Source: Archaeoglobus sulfaticallidus PM70-1
GTDB taxonomy: Archaea; Halobacteriota; Archaeoglobi; Archaeoglobales; Archaeoglobaceae
DNA length: 64,000 nt
Direction of reading: 5' to 3'
Assembly (NCBI RefSeq): GCF_000385565.1
Contig: NC_021169.1
Coordinates: forward strand, 1,718,571 to 1,782,570
Shown: piece by piece, positions 37,099 through 47,735 of the stretch
Layout: each line of letters starts with the position of its first letter
How positions within the stretch are numbered: the first letter of the stretch is position 1
Program-made: the position numbers and the translations under genes
The notes under the pieces: generated by a model
What the model saw: only the letters and a program-made list of their open reading frames with translations
The model's database searches: none
What the model was told of the DNA's origin: nothing

Positions 37099-37818
37099 CT
37101 ATCTTCTCCTTATATATGCTACCGCTCCAATCGTTGCAAGTATTATTGCAGCTATAAGAATCGTCCAAGTTGGCTGTTGCCACGATGGTACTTCAGCTGA
37201 TGTAGTCGGTTTAGCTGGAGCAGTCGGCTTTGCTGTTGGTGATACAATAGATTCGCCAGTTGCGCCAGTTCCACTTTCAGTTGTGCCACCTCCTGCACCA
37301 GCTGTTGTCGGATTTGGTGTTGAGGCTGTGGTGCCAGTTCCACTAGTTGTGCCACCTCCTGCACCACCTCCAGCACCAGCTCCACCTCCTGCACTAGCTA
37401 TAGTAGCTGCTGCAGATGTTGGCGTGACTGTAGCACCTGTTTCAGTTGCTGGGGAATAATACAAATCATACTGCCCAACCTCCCCAGAGATCCATGGAAT
37501 TTCTTCAGCAACTTTTATTTCTGTTCCATCAACGACTACATATAGATCGAAAGCTTCGCATTCATCAACAATCATTCTTTTGGTTGCCAGCTCACCATTG
37601 AATCCATTTTCAACTACAGCTTGTCCAATAACCACATCAGTTCCACTTACTTTGGCAACTACAAGTGTGCCTTCTGGAGCGGGCTCATTTGTATCGCTGT
37701 TTATAACACTTCCATGCAGAAGCATTGGAAGTGATGGCGGAGATTCCTGTGCAGTGGCTAGGGATGTAATTAATACAAATAGCAATAGCAAGATCGCTGT
37801 TTTTCTCATTTTCACCAC
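37099..37818 (-). CDS. Secreted, C-terminally anchored surface protein (239 aa)
   Basis: Signal peptide ILLLLFVLITSLATAQE; a beta-sandwich resembling carboxypeptidase regulatory/transthyretin-like repeats (LLHGSVINSDTNEPAPEGTL); a glycine/threonine/serine low-complexity linker (GGGAGAGGGAGGGTTSGTGT), likely glycosylated; then a membrane helix WTILIAAIILATIGAVAYI with a terminal arginine cluster (RRR). The topology is that of an archaeal cell-envelope protein standing on a flexible stalk. Part of a run of three secreted proteins on this strand. Confidence 0.75.
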   Translation of the reverse strand: MVKMRKTAILLLLFVLITSLATAQESPPSLPMLLHGSVINSDTNEPAPEGTLVVAKVSGTDVVIGQAVVENGFNGELATKRMIVDECEAFDLYVVVDGTEIKVAEEIPWISGEVGQYDLYYSPATETGATVTPTSAAATIASAGGGAGAGGGAGGGTTSGTGTTASTPNPTTAGAGGGTTESGTGATGESIVSPTAKPTAPAKPTTSAEVPSWQQPTWTILIAAIILATIGAVAYIRRR

Positions 37819-37889: not shown

Positions 37890-39803
37890 TTAACTTTCCA
37901 AAGCCTCCAACGTTGTTTCACTCGTCACATGTATCCAGTAGCCAGCGTGTGGTTGCATTACGAAGTCCTCTGTTGTAACATGTTCACCCGACACCAGCGG
38001 TGGACATGGATATGGCCAGACATTGCAGTTGTAGCCGTAGAGATCGTGGGTCTGCTCTTCTGCATTCCATACCCATATTCTGTCATAGCTTTCATCAATC
38101 ATGAATAACGTGGTTTCTGCTGAAGCTGGCGATTTTAAGAGGTGTCCAATGATGTTCCATCCTTCGCAAAGCTGCATTGATGGTGGAACCGATGCCCCAC
38201 ACTCAAGGTTCGTTATGACTTGCATGCTTTCGACTTTGATCCAGTAAGCTTTGAGTGGTTCAATATCTGTTACGCTCTCCCATCCTCCATTGCATGCGTT
38301 GTAGGATATTACTGCTTCATAGTCAATGCCTTCAAGCACATGATCAACACTTGAGTTGTCTAGCCCACATACTACTGAGATCAGATTCCAGCCTGGATGT
38401 AGAACAATACTACCTGAAACAACTGTGATCGTGATTGTTTCTTCTGCAGAGCTGCAGGTATCGTACATTGTAGCTCTGATCAGGTATTCTCCATCTTCCA
38501 CTCCACTTGCGTTCCAGTCAACACTCCATCCATCGCTTCCGTCAGTATCTTCGCCTATAAGCGTCCAAGTTGTGTCTGCTGCTGGCGCATATTCGAATAC
38601 ACTCTTAACTACATCATTCTGACCGCTGTCATCAACAGCTTCAATTGTAATTGTACCAGCAACACTAGCACCATCTCCCGGATTCGGTATGCTTGGTTCT
38701 GGTGGGTTGCATGCTATAACACTGGTCTGATCTGAGCCTGTCAGCCCCTCGTCATCGCCCATTGTTGCACGGATTATGTAGCACCCATCTGGAACTGTTA
38801 CTGTGTCCCATTCAGCACTCCATCCATCATCTCCATTTGTATCATTGTATATTTCTACCCAGCCAGCGCCATCGTTTGCTTTGCCATCGCAGTTCAGGTC
38901 TGGATAGTACTCGAACAAGTTGTAGGTTATGTTTCTTCCACTTTCATCTACTTCTACAATTGTAGCCATACCACTGAGCATATCACCTTTTGATGGTTGG
39001 GCTATGGTTGGTTGTGGACCTTCTGCAACTTCAACACTGCTATCACAGCTTATTGGTGCTGGATTATCCATTCCCTGCATCTGGAAATCTCCGCTGAATG
39101 TGTAAGTGCCTTCTGCTGCACCTTCTGGAACTCTAACCTGGTACGTGTAGGTCGTATCTTCCGCATTTTGTAGTGCTATCCACTTTATGTGGCCTGGGTC
39201 GGCTGTATTTCCTCCACCGGCATCAACGATCTCCCATCCTGCTGGTAGAACTTCATCTATTGCATAGAAGTCTGCACCGTCAACCGTTACTGTTAGCGTT
39301 ACGGTTGCTGTTGAGCCCGGTGCTAGAGATCCATCTGGTAGGTCTCTGCATACGTTCATTCCCTCTGGTGGAGGTACCTGAACTGTTTCCACCTGAACTT
39401 CAACACTGCTATCACAGCTTATTGGTGCTGGATTATCCATTCCCTGCATCTGGAAATCTCCGCTGAATGTGTAAGTGCCTTCTGCTGCACCTTCTGGAAC
39501 TCTAACCTGGTACGTGTAGGTCGTATCTTCCGCATTTTGTAGTGCTATCCACTTTATGTGGCCTGGGTCGGCTGTATTTCCTCCACCGGCATCAACGATC
39601 TCCCATCCTGCTGGTAGAACTTCATCTATTGCATAGAAGTCTGCACCGTCAACCGTTACTGTTAGCGTTACGGTTGCTGTTGAGCCCGGTGCTAGAGATC
39701 CATCTGGTAGGTCTCTGCATACGTCTTGTGCTGATGCAGAAGCTATTGCAATCATTGCCAAGAGCAGAATTGCTCCAACTACGGTTTTTCTCATTTTTTT
39801 CAC
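37890..39803 (-). CDS. Secreted multidomain Ig-like surface protein with exact 123-aa tandem repeat
   Basis: 637 residues. Signal peptide VVGAILLLAMIAIASASAQD, then two copies of a DUF11-like beta domain of 123 residues (each begins VCRDLPDGSLAPGSTATVTL and contains GADFYAIDEVLPAGWEIVDA); their DNA is identical over 329 bases. Two bacterial-Ig-like domains follow (each with NGDDGWSAEWD or DGSDGWSVDWN and then YxIRATM). A C-terminal module has two PGWNLIS/EGWNIIG repeats. Many cysteines suggest disulfides. No membrane anchor is seen at the C terminus, so it may associate with the S-layer. Confidence 0.75.
   Translation of the reverse strand: MKKMRKTVVGAILLLAMIAIASASAQDVCRDLPDGSLAPGSTATVTLTVTVDGADFYAIDEVLPAGWEIVDAGGGNTADPGHIKWIALQNAEDTTYTYQVRVPEGAAEGTYTFSGDFQMQGMDNPAPISCDSSVEVQVETVQVPPPEGMNVCRDLPDGSLAPGSTATVTLTVTVDGADFYAIDEVLPAGWEIVDAGGGNTADPGHIKWIALQNAEDTTYTYQVRVPEGAAEGTYTFSGDFQMQGMDNPAPISCDSSVEVAEGPQPTIAQPSKGDMLSGMATIVEVDESGRNITYNLFEYYPDLNCDGKANDGAGWVEIYNDTNGDDGWSAEWDTVTVPDGCYIIRATMGDDEGLTGSDQTSVIACNPPEPSIPNPGDGASVAGTITIEAVDDSGQNDVVKSVFEYAPAADTTWTLIGEDTDGSDGWSVDWNASGVEDGEYLIRATMYDTCSSAEETITITVVSGSIVLHPGWNLISVVCGLDNSSVDHVLEGIDYEAVISYNACNGGWESVTDIEPLKAYWIKVESMQVITNLECGASVPPSMQLCEGWNIIGHLLKSPASAETTLFMIDESYDRIWVWNAEEQTHDLYGYNCNVWPYPCPPLVSGEHVTTEDFVMQPHAGYWIHVTSETTLEALES
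39027..39724 (-). repeat. Exact direct duplication, 329 bp copies with 369-bp period
   Basis: Copy 1 at 39027-39355 and copy 2 at 39396-39724 are identical as read here, separated by a 40-base unique linker (encoding QVETVQVPPPEGM-type residues on the minus strand). The period is exactly 123 codons, so the duplication preserves frame and adds one complete domain. Identity at synonymous positions implies a very recent duplication or ongoing conversion. Confidence 0.9.
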
Positions 39804-39833: not shown

Positions 39834-42455
39834 TTATATGCAGTAGACACAGTACTTTTGTCCCGCATACCAATAGTTTACTAGTTCCATCAGACCAGAC
39901 ATTGAAAGATCTCCTTTATTCCAGTCAGCTACTGCATTCAAAAGTTCGTCCATTTCGATCTCGTAGTTCTTGTTTGCGTCGTATGGGTTGTATGGCTCAT
40001 GTGGATTATATGGGTTCGATGGCGTCGAATTACCGCCTTCAATCCTGTTCACATAGATGTCTGTTGGATCGCTTGGATCGTACCAGAACTTGACGCGGTT
40101 TACAAATCCATGTGCAATAGGTGCAATAGGTCCATCGTCTTCTTCTTCACCATCCCAGATGTGGTAGCTTGCTTCAGGTGCATACCATGAAAGCGTTACC
40201 AGATAAAGCTCTCCCCTTGGAAGCACGAATTCTGTGTACTGGTCTGGGTAGGTGTAGAACCATTCAATTAGCCAGCGTTCTTTTTCTTTACACCATTCAT
40301 CGTTTGTAGGATGTGGATTTGAACATTCTCTTATCTTCATCTCATCGTATATCTCCTTGAGCTCTCCCTTGTATCTCTCTTCAACATCTTCCTTAACATA
40401 CTTGATCTCAAGCGGTGGTCTTGCTACTTTTTCACCTATCTTGTCTTGCTGTGATTCTGGCTTTGTCCAGGTTGGCTGCACATCAACAAAGATCTCGTGT
40501 TCTTCGTTGAACGGTGGCATCTCTGGCAGGACTGTATTTGGCTCCCAGACTTCGAGATGCTTACCGTACAGCTTGATTTCATCCTTAGGTAGCTTCTCTC
40601 TAATCACTATGTACTTGACGCAGTTGTCCTTGGCCTTTATTCCAGCAATCTCATAGAGCACTCCATCAACCATGAATGCCTTCTGGTTCCAGTCGATGTT
40701 TGCCCCAATGTTTGCTCCAGCCTGGCCAAACATTCTGCCCATTTCAACTATCGCCTTAGTCTTCTCTGAATCTGTTGCTATAAGCTTTAGATAGAATGTC
40801 GTTCCACTTGTATCTTCTAGAGCTCTGTAGAAGCGCTTGTACTCTCCAACTCCAATTGCCACATTCATGGTTGATCTTTGAGTTCCTCCTCCTTCGTTGT
40901 CATACACATTGAATATTGCTTGGTCGCCAAGAACTTCTACAAGCTCTACTACGTGGTCAAACATCTGTACTTTAGCACCCTGGCCTAGTAGCTTGTTCTT
41001 AAGCACTAAAACGAGTGTTTCATCTCCGCTCAGCTCTTTTCTATCCCTATCCATTGATTCTTTTCTTCTTCCATCTTGGTCTATGTCTATTCCAACTGTT
41101 CTTTCGCTTTCAACATACAGTGCATCTCTCTTATTATCTCCATCTGCATCAAAGCTGTCAATACCGTCTCCAGCTGTCCAAGATGCCATTGGTATCAGGA
41201 CTCTGCTTCCATCCTGTATCATGATTGGCATCGTGTTTGTGTCAAGGAACATGTAGGTAAACTCCTGAACAATTGCTGGGCCGTAAATGTCTCCAAGTGC
41301 TGGATCGTTGTTGTGCTCTTTGATTGTGTAGCCCAACGTGAACATTTCATGTACATCTTCAAAGTCTTCTGGGCCACATACTTCTACTTTCTTAGTATAG
41401 CTATCCCTTACCATAACAATGTCCCAGCATCCATCCTTGTCTTCATCCTTGAACCATAGCTTTTCATACCACATTCTCTTGAATACCTTCTCCTTTGGTT
41501 GCTGTACGTCATTACCGTCCTGCACAAAACTCTCGCATTGCCTGAAGCTTAGCTCCGGATAGCCCTGGTTGTGATCCATGATTGCCGGGTTGAACGTTAT
41601 GAAGTCCTTTTTTGGAGCTTGCCCAGATTGCGGATAGAATGGAGCGACTGGATCTGTATATGGTGGGTTCTCAGGTTTTAGTCCTGTTTCTGGGTCTTTA
41701 AAGCCAAGATCTCCAGCTCCCATGTCAAATGTTCCATAAAGCCTTAATGTACAGTTTTCGCATGGCTCAAACACTACCCTTACCTCTTTTGATACCGAGG
41801 TACACAGCCCATCGTTATCGCAGCCGCTAAGTGTAACTGTGTATGTTCCCTCTGCCGGGAACTGGTGTAGCATGGCCCCCGGAGCTCCGGAATCTGTTAT
41901 TGTTGGTCCATCACCAAAGTCCCATGTGTGATTTACAATCGATCCATCCGGATCGATTCCCACGCCAACGAATCTCACAGTAAGGTTGCACTCCTGACTC
42001 CAGGTGAAGTCAAAGGTCGGTGGTTCTGGCATTAGAACTTCTGAAGTCTTTCCAACTGAAGAATAAATATATTCTGCAGGAGTAGCATTATTGTAGCCCT
42101 CCACCCTAAGGGTATTCCAGATGTGGTTGCCATCTGTTATGTCAGCCGCGTTTACTACATAAGATATGTAATATGTCTTGCTCTCGCCTGGTAGTAGCGT
42201 TAAGTCATTTTCTAGCAATACGGTAGTTGCGTTAGGAAGATCATCAAATACGTCTAATGTAAATGAGTAGTCTTCGCTTGGATTAGTAACTGTCATCGTG
42301 TAGTTAACCGTATCACCGATCTTATAGACGGCATCAGACGGTATTGTTTCCTTAGATAATTGGATGTCCGCAGCGCTTGCTGCGTGCGTCGCTGCAAGCA
42401 ATACAAGCACTAAAATCGCTGCTTTCGCTAATTCCTTACATTTTTTATTACTCAT
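39834..42455 (-). CDS. Probable S-layer protein with PKD domain (873 aa)
   Basis: Signal peptide ILVLVLLAATHAASAAD, a DUF11-like domain (VNYTMTVTNPSEDYSFTLDV), a PKD domain (DPDGSIVNHTWDFGDG, then YTVTLSGCDNDGLC), acid-rich calcium-binding-like loops (DKDGCWDIV, DADGDNKRDALY, DIDQDGRRKES), and a C-terminal EF-hand/dockerin-like segment (YDANKNYEIEMDELLNAV). GKHLEVWEPNTVLPE and the surrounding region resemble methanogen/Archaeoglobus S-layer domains. Several N-x-S/T sequons suit glycosylation. The strong Shine-Dalgarno AAAGGAGGT and TATA box suggest high expression. No C-terminal membrane helix. S-layer identity is inferred from architecture. Confidence 0.7.
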   Translation of the reverse strand: MSNKKCKELAKAAILVLVLLAATHAASAADIQLSKETIPSDAVYKIGDTVNYTMTVTNPSEDYSFTLDVFDDLPNATTVLLENDLTLLPGESKTYYISYVVNAADITDGNHIWNTLRVEGYNNATPAEYIYSSVGKTSEVLMPEPPTFDFTWSQECNLTVRFVGVGIDPDGSIVNHTWDFGDGPTITDSGAPGAMLHQFPAEGTYTVTLSGCDNDGLCTSVSKEVRVVFEPCENCTLRLYGTFDMGAGDLGFKDPETGLKPENPPYTDPVAPFYPQSGQAPKKDFITFNPAIMDHNQGYPELSFRQCESFVQDGNDVQQPKEKVFKRMWYEKLWFKDEDKDGCWDIVMVRDSYTKKVEVCGPEDFEDVHEMFTLGYTIKEHNNDPALGDIYGPAIVQEFTYMFLDTNTMPIMIQDGSRVLIPMASWTAGDGIDSFDADGDNKRDALYVESERTVGIDIDQDGRRKESMDRDRKELSGDETLVLVLKNKLLGQGAKVQMFDHVVELVEVLGDQAIFNVYDNEGGGTQRSTMNVAIGVGEYKRFYRALEDTSGTTFYLKLIATDSEKTKAIVEMGRMFGQAGANIGANIDWNQKAFMVDGVLYEIAGIKAKDNCVKYIVIREKLPKDEIKLYGKHLEVWEPNTVLPEMPPFNEEHEIFVDVQPTWTKPESQQDKIGEKVARPPLEIKYVKEDVEERYKGELKEIYDEMKIRECSNPHPTNDEWCKEKERWLIEWFYTYPDQYTEFVLPRGELYLVTLSWYAPEASYHIWDGEEEDDGPIAPIAHGFVNRVKFWYDPSDPTDIYVNRIEGGNSTPSNPYNPHEPYNPYDANKNYEIEMDELLNAVADWNKGDLSMSGLMELVNYWYAGQKYCVYCI

Positions 42456-42512
42456 ACTTACTAACCTCCTTTCAACTCTAACGGTTAATAGTAATTTTAG
42501 AATATATATATC
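42456..42512 (-). promoter_or_regulatory. Core promoter and ribosome-binding site of the S-layer gene
   Basis: On the minus strand a TATA element lies at about 42501-42511 (ATATATATATT), some 25 bases before a likely start site near 42480. AAAGGAGGT at 42464-42473, 8 bases before ATG 42455, is an unusually complete Shine-Dalgarno sequence for this genome. The tandem 52-bp array begins directly upstream of the TATA box. Confidence 0.65.
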
Positions 42513-43119
42513 ATATGAAATTATGTTTAGAAGCAGATCTTAGGAACCTAATTTTCTAAGTTACATATGAAATTATGTTTAGAAGCAGATCTTAGGAACC
42601 TAATTTTCTAAGTTACATATGAAATTATGTTTAGAAGCAGATCTTAGGAACCTAATTTTCTAAGTTACATATGAAATTATGTTTAGAAGCAGATCTTAGG
42701 AACCTAATTTTCTAAGTTACATATGAAATTATGTTTAGAAGCAGATCTTAGGAACCTAATTTTCTAAGTTACATATGAAATTATGTTTAGAAGCAGATCT
42801 TAGGAACCTAATTTTCTAAGTTACATATGAAATTATGTTTAGAAGCAGATCTTAGGAACCTAATTTTCTAAGTTACATATGAAATTATGTTTAGAAGCAG
42901 ATCTTAGGAACCTAATTTTCTAAGTTACATATGAAATTATGTTTAGAAGCAGATCTTAGGAACCTAATTTTCTAAGTTACATATGAAATTATGTTTAGAA
43001 GCAGATCTTAGGAACCTAATTTTCTAAGTTACATATGAAATTATGTTTAGAAGCAGATCTTAGGAACCTAATTTTCTAAGTTACATATGAAATTATGTTT
43101 AGAAGCAGATCTTAGGAAC
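42513..43119. repeat. Tandem array of eleven identical 52-bp units plus a partial twelfth
   Basis: Units begin at 42513, 42565, 42617, 42669, 42721, 42773, 42825, 42877, 42929, 42981 and 43033, with no base differences seen between complete copies; the twelfth (43085) matches for 35 bases and then diverges. Each unit contains TTAGGAACCTAA (a 5-bp inverted repeat around AA), CTTAG...CTAAG as a wider inverted repeat, and AGATCT. Each also contains a 14-codon frame from ATG to TAA without a ribosome-binding site. There are no unique spacers, so this is not a CRISPR. The position just upstream of the S-layer promoter suggests a regulatory or structural role. Confidence 0.95.
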
Positions 43120-43133
43120 TTAGTTTCTGATTT

Positions 43134-43820
43134 GGGCAGTGTCAAAATAACAAAAAATAAATAAAGAAAATACAAATTATGCAACCCAAACTAAGTCAAT
43201 TAGTGGATCACATCAAAGCTGCAAAAGTCTTTCGTCGCAATAAGAAAAATGTAGAACTGAAAATATTAGCAGCTCCACCATACTTTTTTTGCACTTTCTT
43301 TAAGAAAAACAAGTCAATTTCTATCTCTTTTCGAGGAAATAAGCCATGAATCAGTTAGAATTTACTACCAAAACTTAAAACGGTCCTAAATCCACCGGTA
43401 AAGAGAAAAAGAAGGATTATTGCAATAGATGAAACAAAAATAAAACTGGAAAATAAACAGATTTTTGTATGGGCAGCCTTGATCGATACTAAGGAATGTC
43501 TTACCATATGGGCTTCAGAAGGAAGAGGGAGCTTTGAAGCTTATGTTTTTTAAGAGATGCTCAAATACTGGAAAATAAACCAGAGATCATTGTTGATAGA
43601 GGATTCTAGTATTTATGGGCTCTACAAAGGTTAGGGTTAAATTATAAACATGAAACCTTTGGAACAAGAAATGCTGTATAAGGATTCTTTTCAAGGTTCA
43701 AGGAGAGAACAAAGAGATTTGAAACAGATTTCCCTTCAATAGTTCTTTTGAGTCTTCAGAGCTGGATTGAGAGCTTTATAATGTTTTATAATTATTAGAA
43801 GTGTTAACTTGACATGCCCC
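43134..43820 (+). mobile_element. IS6-like insertion sequence, decayed
   Basis: About 685 bp bounded by imperfect inverted repeats: GGGCAGTGTCAAAATAAC on the left and the reverse complement of GTTAACTTGACATGCCC on the right. The flank CTGATTT occurs on both sides (43127-43133 and 43821-43827), a 7-8 bp target duplication as made by IS6-type elements. The insertion lies just beyond the partial twelfth repeat unit. The transposase inside is broken, so this copy is immobile on its own. Confidence 0.72.
43179..43800 (+). pseudogene. Broken IS6/IS240-type DDE transposase
   Basis: From ATG at about 43179 the pieces read MQPKLSQLVDHIKAAKVFRR, then after frameshifts RRIIAIDETKIKLENKQIFV (first Asp), WAALIDTKECLTIWASEGRG, KPEIIVDRGF (second Asp), YLWALQRLGLNYKHETFGTR and RFKERTKRF. 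At the position of the catalytic glutamate the sequence is N-A-V-stop-G-F-F (TAA in place of GAA). Several frameshifts and stops make it clearly dead. The length, about 210 residues when restored, fits archaeal IS6-like transposases. Confidence 0.75.
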
Positions 43821-43885
43821 CTGATTTGATAATATAATTTGATAATATATTCCGTTGCAATCTGCTCTAAATATAACTTGGTTAA

Positions 43886-44112
43886 AGAATTGGAGGAAAA
43901 CCAAGCGATCATATTATCCCAGCTGTTTCCGCTAAGCTACCTGTGTATGACGTTAATGGCACACCAATCGAACCATTTACCGTTTATGGTGGTGGAACAA
44001 AAACAGTTCTCCTCAAATTTCAATTCCTTCAACAGCCCCAAATGTGATTACAAGTTTAAGGGTGTATTTCGTCTCAAGAATGAATACAAATGTTCTAAGG
44101 TATGACACTTGA
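43886..44112 (+). pseudogene. Frameshifted gene remnant, unknown (possibly viral or surface)
   Basis: After a TAA at 43883 the frame reads RIGGKPSDHIIPAVSAKLPV then YDVNGTPIEPFTVYGGGTKT, and after a one-base shift near 44010 continues ISIPSTAPNVITSLRVYFVS, RMNTNVLRYDT and stop at 44112. The two parts make one plausible beta-rich protein of about 75 residues, truncated at the 5' side by or near the insertion sequence. Its stop overlaps the next start (TATGACACTTGA), which supports a former operon. I do not recognise the family. Confidence 0.45.
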
Positions 44113-44224
44113 AGATTTGCTCGATAGGGCTCTTGCTTCAGGATACATTAACCAAAGCCAGCATGAGGACATCTGGAATGAAGTCTACAAGAAGGGTGCA
44201 AGAGTTTTTTGTTGGAGGGTTTGA
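44102..44224 (+). CDS. Small protein fragment (40 aa) in remnant operon
   Basis: ATG 44102 overlaps the preceding stop and encodes TLEDLLDRALASGYINQSQH then EDIWNEVYKKGARVFCWRV. The first part resembles helical domains of small virion or tail-accessory proteins in shape only. It probably lost its 3' part: the following 200 bases contain no continuation in a single frame. Function not recognised. Confidence 0.35.
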   Translation: MTLEDLLDRALASGYINQSQHEDIWNEVYKKGARVFCWRV

Positions 44225-44421
44225 GATTCACCATATAGTTGGTATATTGTAGCTTGGGCAACCGATTTGGGAGGAGCGATAGTGAGAAATATTGCAACTT
44301 TTTTGTGGTTGTAACAGTACTTACATACAGAACAGACTTTAATAGTATCTCCTTTGATAAACCAAATATAAAGCAGCGGTGATGAAGATCTTAACACACC
44401 CGACCTTACCCACACTTAAGA

Positions 44422-44756
44422 ATGATGGGAAATGCTATGATTGCACTCGCAGCACACGACATGTGGGGTGCAACATCACAAGACACGAATGTACCTAAGA
44501 CATTTGAGGACGTGTTCGACGTGAGATTCCTTGACGAACAAATTATACTGCAAACAAGCACGTTGCAACCTTTGGAGGGCTTTTGCCCCATGCAGCTCCA
44601 CGCAAGTAGATTTTTCAATCCACTTGCCAGAGGGAGGGATTGCCAGCCGGAAATTACACTGGAATGATAGAGCTTGAAATAATATCAGTAATCTACCCAT
44701 ACAAAATTCCAGAGATAATAGCGGAACTGTGTGATGGTGGATATTGTAGAGAGTAA
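44422..44756 (+). pseudogene. Frameshifted unknown gene (about 110 aa when restored)
   Basis: ATG 44422 opens MIALAAHDMWGATSQDTNVP and DVFDVRFLDEQIILQTSTL, then LEGFCPMQLHASRFFNPLAR; skipping one G in the run near 44631-44636 gives EGLPAGNYTGMIELEIISVI and YPYKIPEIIAELCDGGYCRE, stop at 44754-44756. The restored beta-rich protein looks like a secreted or virion component but matches no family I know. The uninterrupted frame ends at 44667. Confidence 0.45.
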
Positions 44757-44823: not shown

Positions 44824-45078
44824 TTAAGGCTTCATATCCTCACTAATTTCAGAAAATTTCCTTACCAAATCTTTACCTTTTTCAGTCGCTCTATAGGTTG
44901 TTTTACCGTTTATCAATTCAAGCTCTAAATACTCCAAATCAACCAAATACACAAGATACTTTTCTGCAATTTTAAAATTTAAATTGGCACCATACACTAT
45001 TTTGGTTTTATTACACCTACCATTTTGAGTAACCACTTTTATTATATCTATGACAATATCAAATCTTGTTCGTCTCAT
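44824..45078 (-). CDS. Winged-helix transcriptional regulator (archaeal, COG3432-like)
   Basis: 84 residues: RFDIVIDIIKVVTQNGRCNK then TKIVYGANLNFKIAEKYLVY (recognition helix region) and a wing with ELINGKTTYRATEKGKDLVR. This is the compact single-domain wHTH pattern common in archaea and their viruses and plasmids. It lies at the edge of the decayed mobile region, so it may have regulated an integrated element or a host surface gene. Confidence 0.75.
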   Translation of the reverse strand: MRRTRFDIVIDIIKVVTQNGRCNKTKIVYGANLNFKIAEKYLVYLVDLEYLELELINGKTTYRATEKGKDLVRKFSEISEDMKP

Positions 45079-45146: not shown

Positions 45147-45715
45147 TTACCCCACCACCCTGACAGCAAACACGTTGTGCCACAGCCCAATTGCAAACAG
45201 AGCCATCTTCCTCCTATCCTCCTCTTCTACCTTATCAACCATCCAAACCTTTTCTTATCCAGAGAGATTGAATTGATCTTTACTCCCATCTCTTTGAGCA
45301 TTCTTATTGCCTTCTCGAAGGCGCCCTTCTCAGATCTGTTTGAGTAGCCCAATCCAACGTACATTCCCGTCTTAAGGTCAATTATCCTGAAAACATAGCG
45401 GAAGTCTTTACCTTTCTTCTCAAGATTGCTCCTGTAGTGCTTAGTAATAGTCAAGCTATAACCAGCCCCTCTCTTGAAAAGCCCCCAGATACTCCTTCTT
45501 CCTTTAACAACGAGGTTGTGCAGAGCAAGCTTGACCTCCTCATCTGAATAAAGCCTCTCTATTGTTTTGTAGCTAACCTTTATCCCGAATAAAGGTTCAA
45601 ATAGCTCTAAAAGCTCTTCAACATCCCTGTTCGATTTATCCATTAACCTTGCAAAAAGGAAAAGCGTAACCCCCTTCTCCAGATCAACCTTCTTGGGTCT
45701 TCCTCTTTTGCACAT
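45147..45715 (-). pseudogene. Transposase with internal deletion
   Basis: The 162-residue frame from 45715 has a basic start (CKRGRPKKVDLEKG), a helical region (LLELFEPLFGIKVSYKTIER) and a first catalytic-type segment (YVFRIIDLKTGMYVGLGYSN), then KINSISLDKKRFG and a premature end. After it, in another frame, comes the C-terminal end KVEEEDRRKMALFAIGLWHN then VFAVRVVG and a stop at 45147. The middle of the protein, including most of the catalytic core, has been deleted. The family is not assigned; it looks like a DDE type. Confidence 0.68.
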
Positions 45716-46565: not shown

Positions 46566-47735
46566 ATGAGATTCTTTGCCATTGGATTCGGTCAGGCAGG
46601 GAGTAAGATACTTGACTTATTTGTGGATAACGAGAAACAAAGAGGAGCAGGTATCAAACACAATGTGCTGGCGATAAATTCCGCAAGAACGGATCTATTA
46701 GGATTGAGACATATCGATCATAAAGATAGAATTCTGATCGGACAGACACTGGTTAAAGGACATGGAGTCGGAACGGATAACAAGCTTGGAGCAAAGGTTG
46801 CCCAAGAGGATATAGAAACGATACTGAGTGCCATCGATGAAAGGGGTACTCATGATGTTGATGCTTTCCTGATCATAGCTGGGCTCGGAGGTGGAACTGG
46901 AAGTGGTGGAGCCCCTGTACTGGCAAGATACCTGAGCGAGATGTATGCCGAGCCCGTGTATGCAGTGGGAATTCTTCCCGCCCCCGAAGAGGGCAAGCTT
47001 TACTCGCTAAACGCTGCAAGAAGCATGATCACTCTCCTGAAATATGTTGATAACCTCATTCTCGTAGATAACGGTGCGTGGAAGTTCGAAGGGGCAAGCC
47101 TGAAGGAGTCATTCGCGAGAATAAATGAGGAGATAGTCAGGAGACTGACCATTTTAGCAAGAGCTGGCGAGCCTATTGAAGAGGGAATGGTTGGAGAGAT
47201 GGTTGTTGATAGCTCTGAAGTTATAAACACTTTTAAGGGTGGAGGGATCTCCTCTATAGGATACGCAACAACCACCGCTGAGCCGGAAAAGAAGAAGAAA
47301 TTTGGGTTCAGCCTATTCAAGAAATCCCGTGAAGAAGCGAGCTTTGAAGAGGATAAATCTATGAAAATTGCCTCCCTCGTCAGGAGGGCTGCGCTTGGTA
47401 GATTATCTGTTCCATGCAACATAAGAAGTGCAGAGAGAGCATTGGTTCTCGTAGCTGGCCCACCGGAGCATCTTGACAGGAAGGGCATAGAGAAGGCAAA
47501 ACTGTGGCTTGAAGATCAGATTGCAGGTGTTGAGGTTAGAGCAGGAGATTATCCAACGAGAAAGACCAAGTATGTGGCTGCACTGGTTGTTCTCGCAAAT
47601 GTTACCGATATACCGAGGGTAAAACAGCTCCAGAAGCTTGCAGTTGAGGCGCGAGAAGAAGTCGAGGATGCCGAGAAGATAAGGCTTGAGAAAACCCTTG
47701 AGCTTTTTGATGAAGATATAGATCCACTCTTCTAA
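46566..47735 (+). CDS. cetZ: CetZ tubulin-superfamily GTPase
   Basis: 389 residues. IGFGQAGSKILDLF at the N terminus, the GTP-binding tubulin signature AGLGGGTGSGGAPVLARYL (about residue 108) and NSLNAARSM-like T5 region. The GFGQAG start and overall length place it in the CetZ (FtsZ3) group rather than FtsZ1/2. A lysine-rich insertion (EKKKKFGFSLFKKSREEA) occurs near residue 240. CetZ proteins control cell shape in haloarchaea; the role in Archaeoglobales is not known. ATG 46566 follows GAAGGTGAAATA. Confidence 0.88.
   Translation: MRFFAIGFGQAGSKILDLFVDNEKQRGAGIKHNVLAINSARTDLLGLRHIDHKDRILIGQTLVKGHGVGTDNKLGAKVAQEDIETILSAIDERGTHDVDAFLIIAGLGGGTGSGGAPVLARYLSEMYAEPVYAVGILPAPEEGKLYSLNAARSMITLLKYVDNLILVDNGAWKFEGASLKESFARINEEIVRRLTILARAGEPIEEGMVGEMVVDSSEVINTFKGGGISSIGYATTTAEPEKKKKFGFSLFKKSREEASFEEDKSMKIASLVRRAALGRLSVPCNIRSAERALVLVAGPPEHLDRKGIEKAKLWLEDQIAGVEVRAGDYPTRKTKYVAALVVLANVTDIPRVKQLQKLAVEAREEVEDAEKIRLEKTLELFDEDIDPLF

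Follow-up and report, generated by a model that had tools for sequence, protein, structure and literature searches.

The window analysed here, meaning the whole 64,000-nucleotide stretch of DNA, covers positions 1,718,571-1,782,570 of the 2,076,931-base single-contig genome of Archaeoglobus sulfaticallidus PM70-1. A cluster of three genes for exported proteins, all on the minus strand, lies on one side of the locus. The first of them (39834-42455) encodes an 873-aa exported protein with a signal peptide, DUF7507/DUF11, a PKD domain and an EF-hand/dockerin-like C-terminus, the last of which was assigned by inspection; the PDB matches of its PKD domain are mainly PKD domains of collagenases, and no C-terminal membrane segment or anchor was found in it. 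The second gene of this putative operon (37890-39803) encodes a 637-aa exported repeat protein, and the third (37099-37818) a 239-aa exported protein with a Thr/Ser/Gly-rich stalk and a C-terminal membrane segment. Within the 637-aa protein, a perfect internal tandem duplication of 369 bp (123 aa) occupies 39027-39724, while its homologues in other archaea (L075 and L076) carry 2.8-2.9 diverged copies of a 354-360-bp repeat, and these differences in repeat copies indicate that the domain duplicates repeatedly.

The sequence-only reading had taken the 873-aa protein for an S-layer protein, which is unproven. PF07752 is absent from this protein and from the whole genome. Three genomes from a different family of the same phylum (G029, G038, and G078) carry homologues of the 637-aa gene alongside separate PF07752 genes; in G038 and G078, the gene preceding the homologue has a similar C-terminal end. 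Among near-full-length relatives of the 873-aa protein, the best is a 1474-aa exported protein of Methanophagales (L112, 213-4637), in which the main domain is present twice in tandem, with 52-54% identity to the 873-aa protein over both copies. DUF11-like and apparently cohesin/dockerin-like genes come after it, an arrangement suggestive of gene exchange or of a common ancestry for this surface cassette. Given the absence of PF07752 and this Methanophagales relative, we refer to the 873-aa product as a large exported protein, for which S-layer is a candidate label and other S-layer types are conceivable.

The 52-bp array and its promoter edge

Directly upstream of the 873-aa gene lies a tandem array of a 52-bp unit (CATATGAAATTATGTTTAGAAGCAGATCTTAGGAACCTAATTTTCTAAGTTA). 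When cut in register, it comprises 11 full copies without a single difference (42512-43083) and a partial 12th copy whose first 36 bases match the unit (43084-43119) and which diverges beyond, giving a total of 608 bp or 11.7 copies; Tandem Repeats Finder called period 52, 11.8 copies and 99% matches over 42512-43126. The eleven perfect repeats noticed earlier, at 42513-43119, are thus confirmed, with their span correct to within one base. Divergence is confined to the distal end copy, and the inner copies are uniform. A full 12th copy, continuing past base 43119 if the insertion sequence described below is cut out, was rejected; its alignment was no better than shuffles (26%), so the claim is limited to 36 bp. 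Among the stretches read, this is the only non-coding array of such size. Its period is not a multiple of three, the units are perfect, and no ORF of at least 80 aa runs across it, which sets it apart from protein-coding repeats. Each unit holds a 14-codon ATG-to-stop frame, MKLCLEADLRNLIF (e.g., 42515-42559, plus strand), without a visible ribosome-binding site, which is probably due to chance.

The lower edge of the array (42512) abuts a TATA-like tract, ATATATATAT (42502-42511, minus strand), located 46 nt upstream of the start of the 873-aa gene and presumed to be its core promoter. This 10-mer occurs only once in the 64 kb, where 0.07 would be expected. The tract was assigned by inspection, because the two promoter models trained de novo returned purine motifs resembling ribosome-binding sites and no TATA box. 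A Shine-Dalgarno-like GGAGGT (42464-42469, minus strand), also recognized by inspection, stands 8 nt before the ATG at 42455, and the promoter and leader of the gene look like ordinary archaeal ones. Both the TATA-like tract and the ribosome-binding site are outside the array. The geometry proposed earlier, in which the array abuts the TATA-like tract in front of an exported-protein gene, is therefore supported; the exactness of this placement is striking, and the presumed BRE bases would fall inside the first copy.

The number of copies is less certain than the sequence of the unit. According to the genome report (PMC3703591), PM70-1 was sequenced with 454 reads and 8-kb pairs (386,142 reads, 50x), and 20 contigs were closed by PCR and Sanger sequencing of the products. 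From these figures and a genome of 2.08 Mb, we computed a mean read of ~269 bp, which cannot span the 608-bp array, and we infer that the array was one of the gaps so closed. The copy count or the perfect identity might then be partly a product of assembly, with a different true number or minor differences between copies, which we regard as improbable: Sanger reads of ~700-900 bp could just span the array, while the diverged end copy and the unique flanks on both sides argue for a genuine locus. This alternative bears on the count of the array and not on its existence.

Decayed flank and searches for related sequences

On its far side, the array borders decaying DNA, with an insertion sequence relic and fragments of exported-protein genes. 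The relic (43135-43820, plus strand) is an IS6/IS240-like element with a DDE_Tnp_IS240 remnant and imperfect terminal inverted repeats, flanked by a perfect 8-bp target-site duplication, CTGATTTG (43127-43134 and 43821-43828). It is followed by a collapsed pseudogene block (43944-44750, plus strand), the remains of two exported-protein genes whose intact counterparts lie side by side in another Archaeoglobaceae genome (L111). Further on, 44824-45078 encodes an 84-aa winged-helix protein (HTH_45) that weakly matches phage protein families and is a candidate for binding the unit, and 45227-45715 holds a 162-aa ORF resembling a truncated transposase (weak match, E 0.18). A CetZ-like gene (46566-47735) is the only match to the sister species at this place and the array locus is not syntenic, which indicates that the neighbourhood of the array is lineage-specific.

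The unit itself was found nowhere else. In its own genome, BLAST with E up to 10 returned only chance matches of 15-18 bases outside the array, and the inner motif recurred no more than expected by chance, with no copy at any other promoter. The comparison with other Archaeoglobales that had been proposed was run on 54 other Archaeoglobaceae genomes and gave nothing above noise (best E ~0.02, hits of 15-37 bp). No exact match to the unit core was present in GTDB representative genomes or IMG/VR, no similarity was detected in plasmid and phage collections, and an Rfam search of the unit matched no RNA family. No comparable array was seen upstream of the homologous gene pairs of L075 and L076 or near other PKD-protein loci (L077-L084) wherever the DNA was readable. 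This comparison of orthologous upstream regions is limited, and the contig from Methanophagales stops close to the gene or within it.

An integrated plasmid or virus might also have left the array behind as an iteron, origin or partition site, an alternative suggested earlier; the direct repeats are perfect and lie next to relics of mobile elements, with a small winged-helix gene of weak phage-family similarity nearby. Such a remnant is very improbable here: matches to orc1/cdc6 are located at 1.19, 1.26, 1.30, and 1.90 Mb, far from the array at 1.761 Mb (the closest ~143 kb away), which disfavours a replication iteron. In addition, no replication or partition gene was found in the flank examined, plasmid, phage and viral-contig collections contained no similar sequence, and the decayed neighbours are exported-protein genes rather than replicon genes.

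Regulation and origin of the array

The position of the array led the sequence-only reading to propose a phased multi-site operator, in which palindromes within the units would face the same side of the DNA. More broadly, the units could bind a transcription factor or an architectural protein, so that copy number tunes the surface-protein operon as a VNTR-type expression switch. The array adjoins the putative operon at its TATA-like tract, a small winged-helix gene (HTH_45, as above) lies 1.7 kb away, and the period is indeed close to five helical turns (computed as 4.95-5.0), but a near-integer number of turns carries little weight, since it has a sizeable chance of arising with any period. 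The inner palindrome is present, yet it is not distinctive, as 28% of simulated random units of matched composition contain one as good. Folding of a single unit was no better than that of shuffles (z -0.7 and -1.3); a two-unit stretch folded better (z -2.7), which tandem repetition makes easier. There is thus no stand-out binding motif in the unit (palindromes are at chance level, non-palindromic sites being compatible with this result), neither the unit nor its inner motif is repeated at other or orthologous promoters, and the homologous operons lack an array where their upstream DNA is readable. The phased operator is accordingly unsupported, and an upstream regulatory array of any kind appears unlikely. 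Less likely still is a recently evolved copy-number switch tuning this archaeal surface-protein operon, in which slippage would alter the number of protein-binding units beside the core promoter; if it were true, the altered unit number would vary the surface between cells.

We consider it probable instead that the array is a non-coding minisatellite, specific to this lineage and amplified recently, within an intergenic region that is decaying. The recent amplification inferred earlier from perfect identity is supported, since 11 full copies are identical base for base. A single AT-rich, unconstrained segment of 52 bp just upstream of the TATA-like tract would have been amplified head to tail, presumably as copies slipped during replication or recombined unequally, and the same process would keep the inner copies uniform while the end copy diverges. 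Its promoter-side position may be significant, or it may simply follow from the spare intergenic, non-coding DNA available there. The exact abutment on the TATA-like tract and the better folding of two units weigh against this reading, and selection for copy number is compatible with the sequence. The array is probably a genuine but ordinary repeat without a dedicated function, and control of the adjacent gene by it is only putative. Of the original proposals, the geometry, the recent amplification and the alternative of a neutral satellite stand, the last with a unique unit, palindromes at chance level and a flank of pseudogenes and IS relics, while the phased operator is unsupported, the S-layer label is unproven and the iteron is disfavoured.

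The array offers a clean case of a young minisatellite in contact with what is presumably an archaeal core promoter, and a simple copy-number reporter test on it could show whether such repeats influence archaeal transcription. If neutral, it could serve directly as a marker for typing strains of A. sulfaticallidus.

Comparison with known repeat systems

Direct repeats with a constant unit length are shared with the iteron arrays of plasmids and other replicons, from which the 52-bp array differs in having no initiator gene (orc1/cdc6) nearby and no plasmid or viral relatives. Regularly spaced repeats in an archaeon also recall CRISPR arrays, but a CRISPR array was rejected here because the entire unit is identical in the 11 copies, without variable or unique spacers, and the unit is found nowhere else in the genome.

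In bacterial promoter VNTRs, the copy number of repeats tunes expression. The array resembles them in placing tandem repeats just ahead of a surface-protein gene, and differs in being known from the sequence of one strain alone.

The closest likeness is to prokaryotic satellites, which were defined as regular arrays of at least four tandem copies with a unit of 10-200 bp (Subirana and Messeguer 2019, PMC6749651). In that study, 39.9% of archaeal satellites had a unique sequence, and these were regarded as having developed spontaneously. With 11.7 copies of 52 bp, identical in all full copies, the array belongs among the prokaryotic satellites or minisatellites by copy number, unit length, internal regularity, intergenic position and species-unique sequence, and it differs from them in being unusually perfect and in lying directly against a presumed core promoter.
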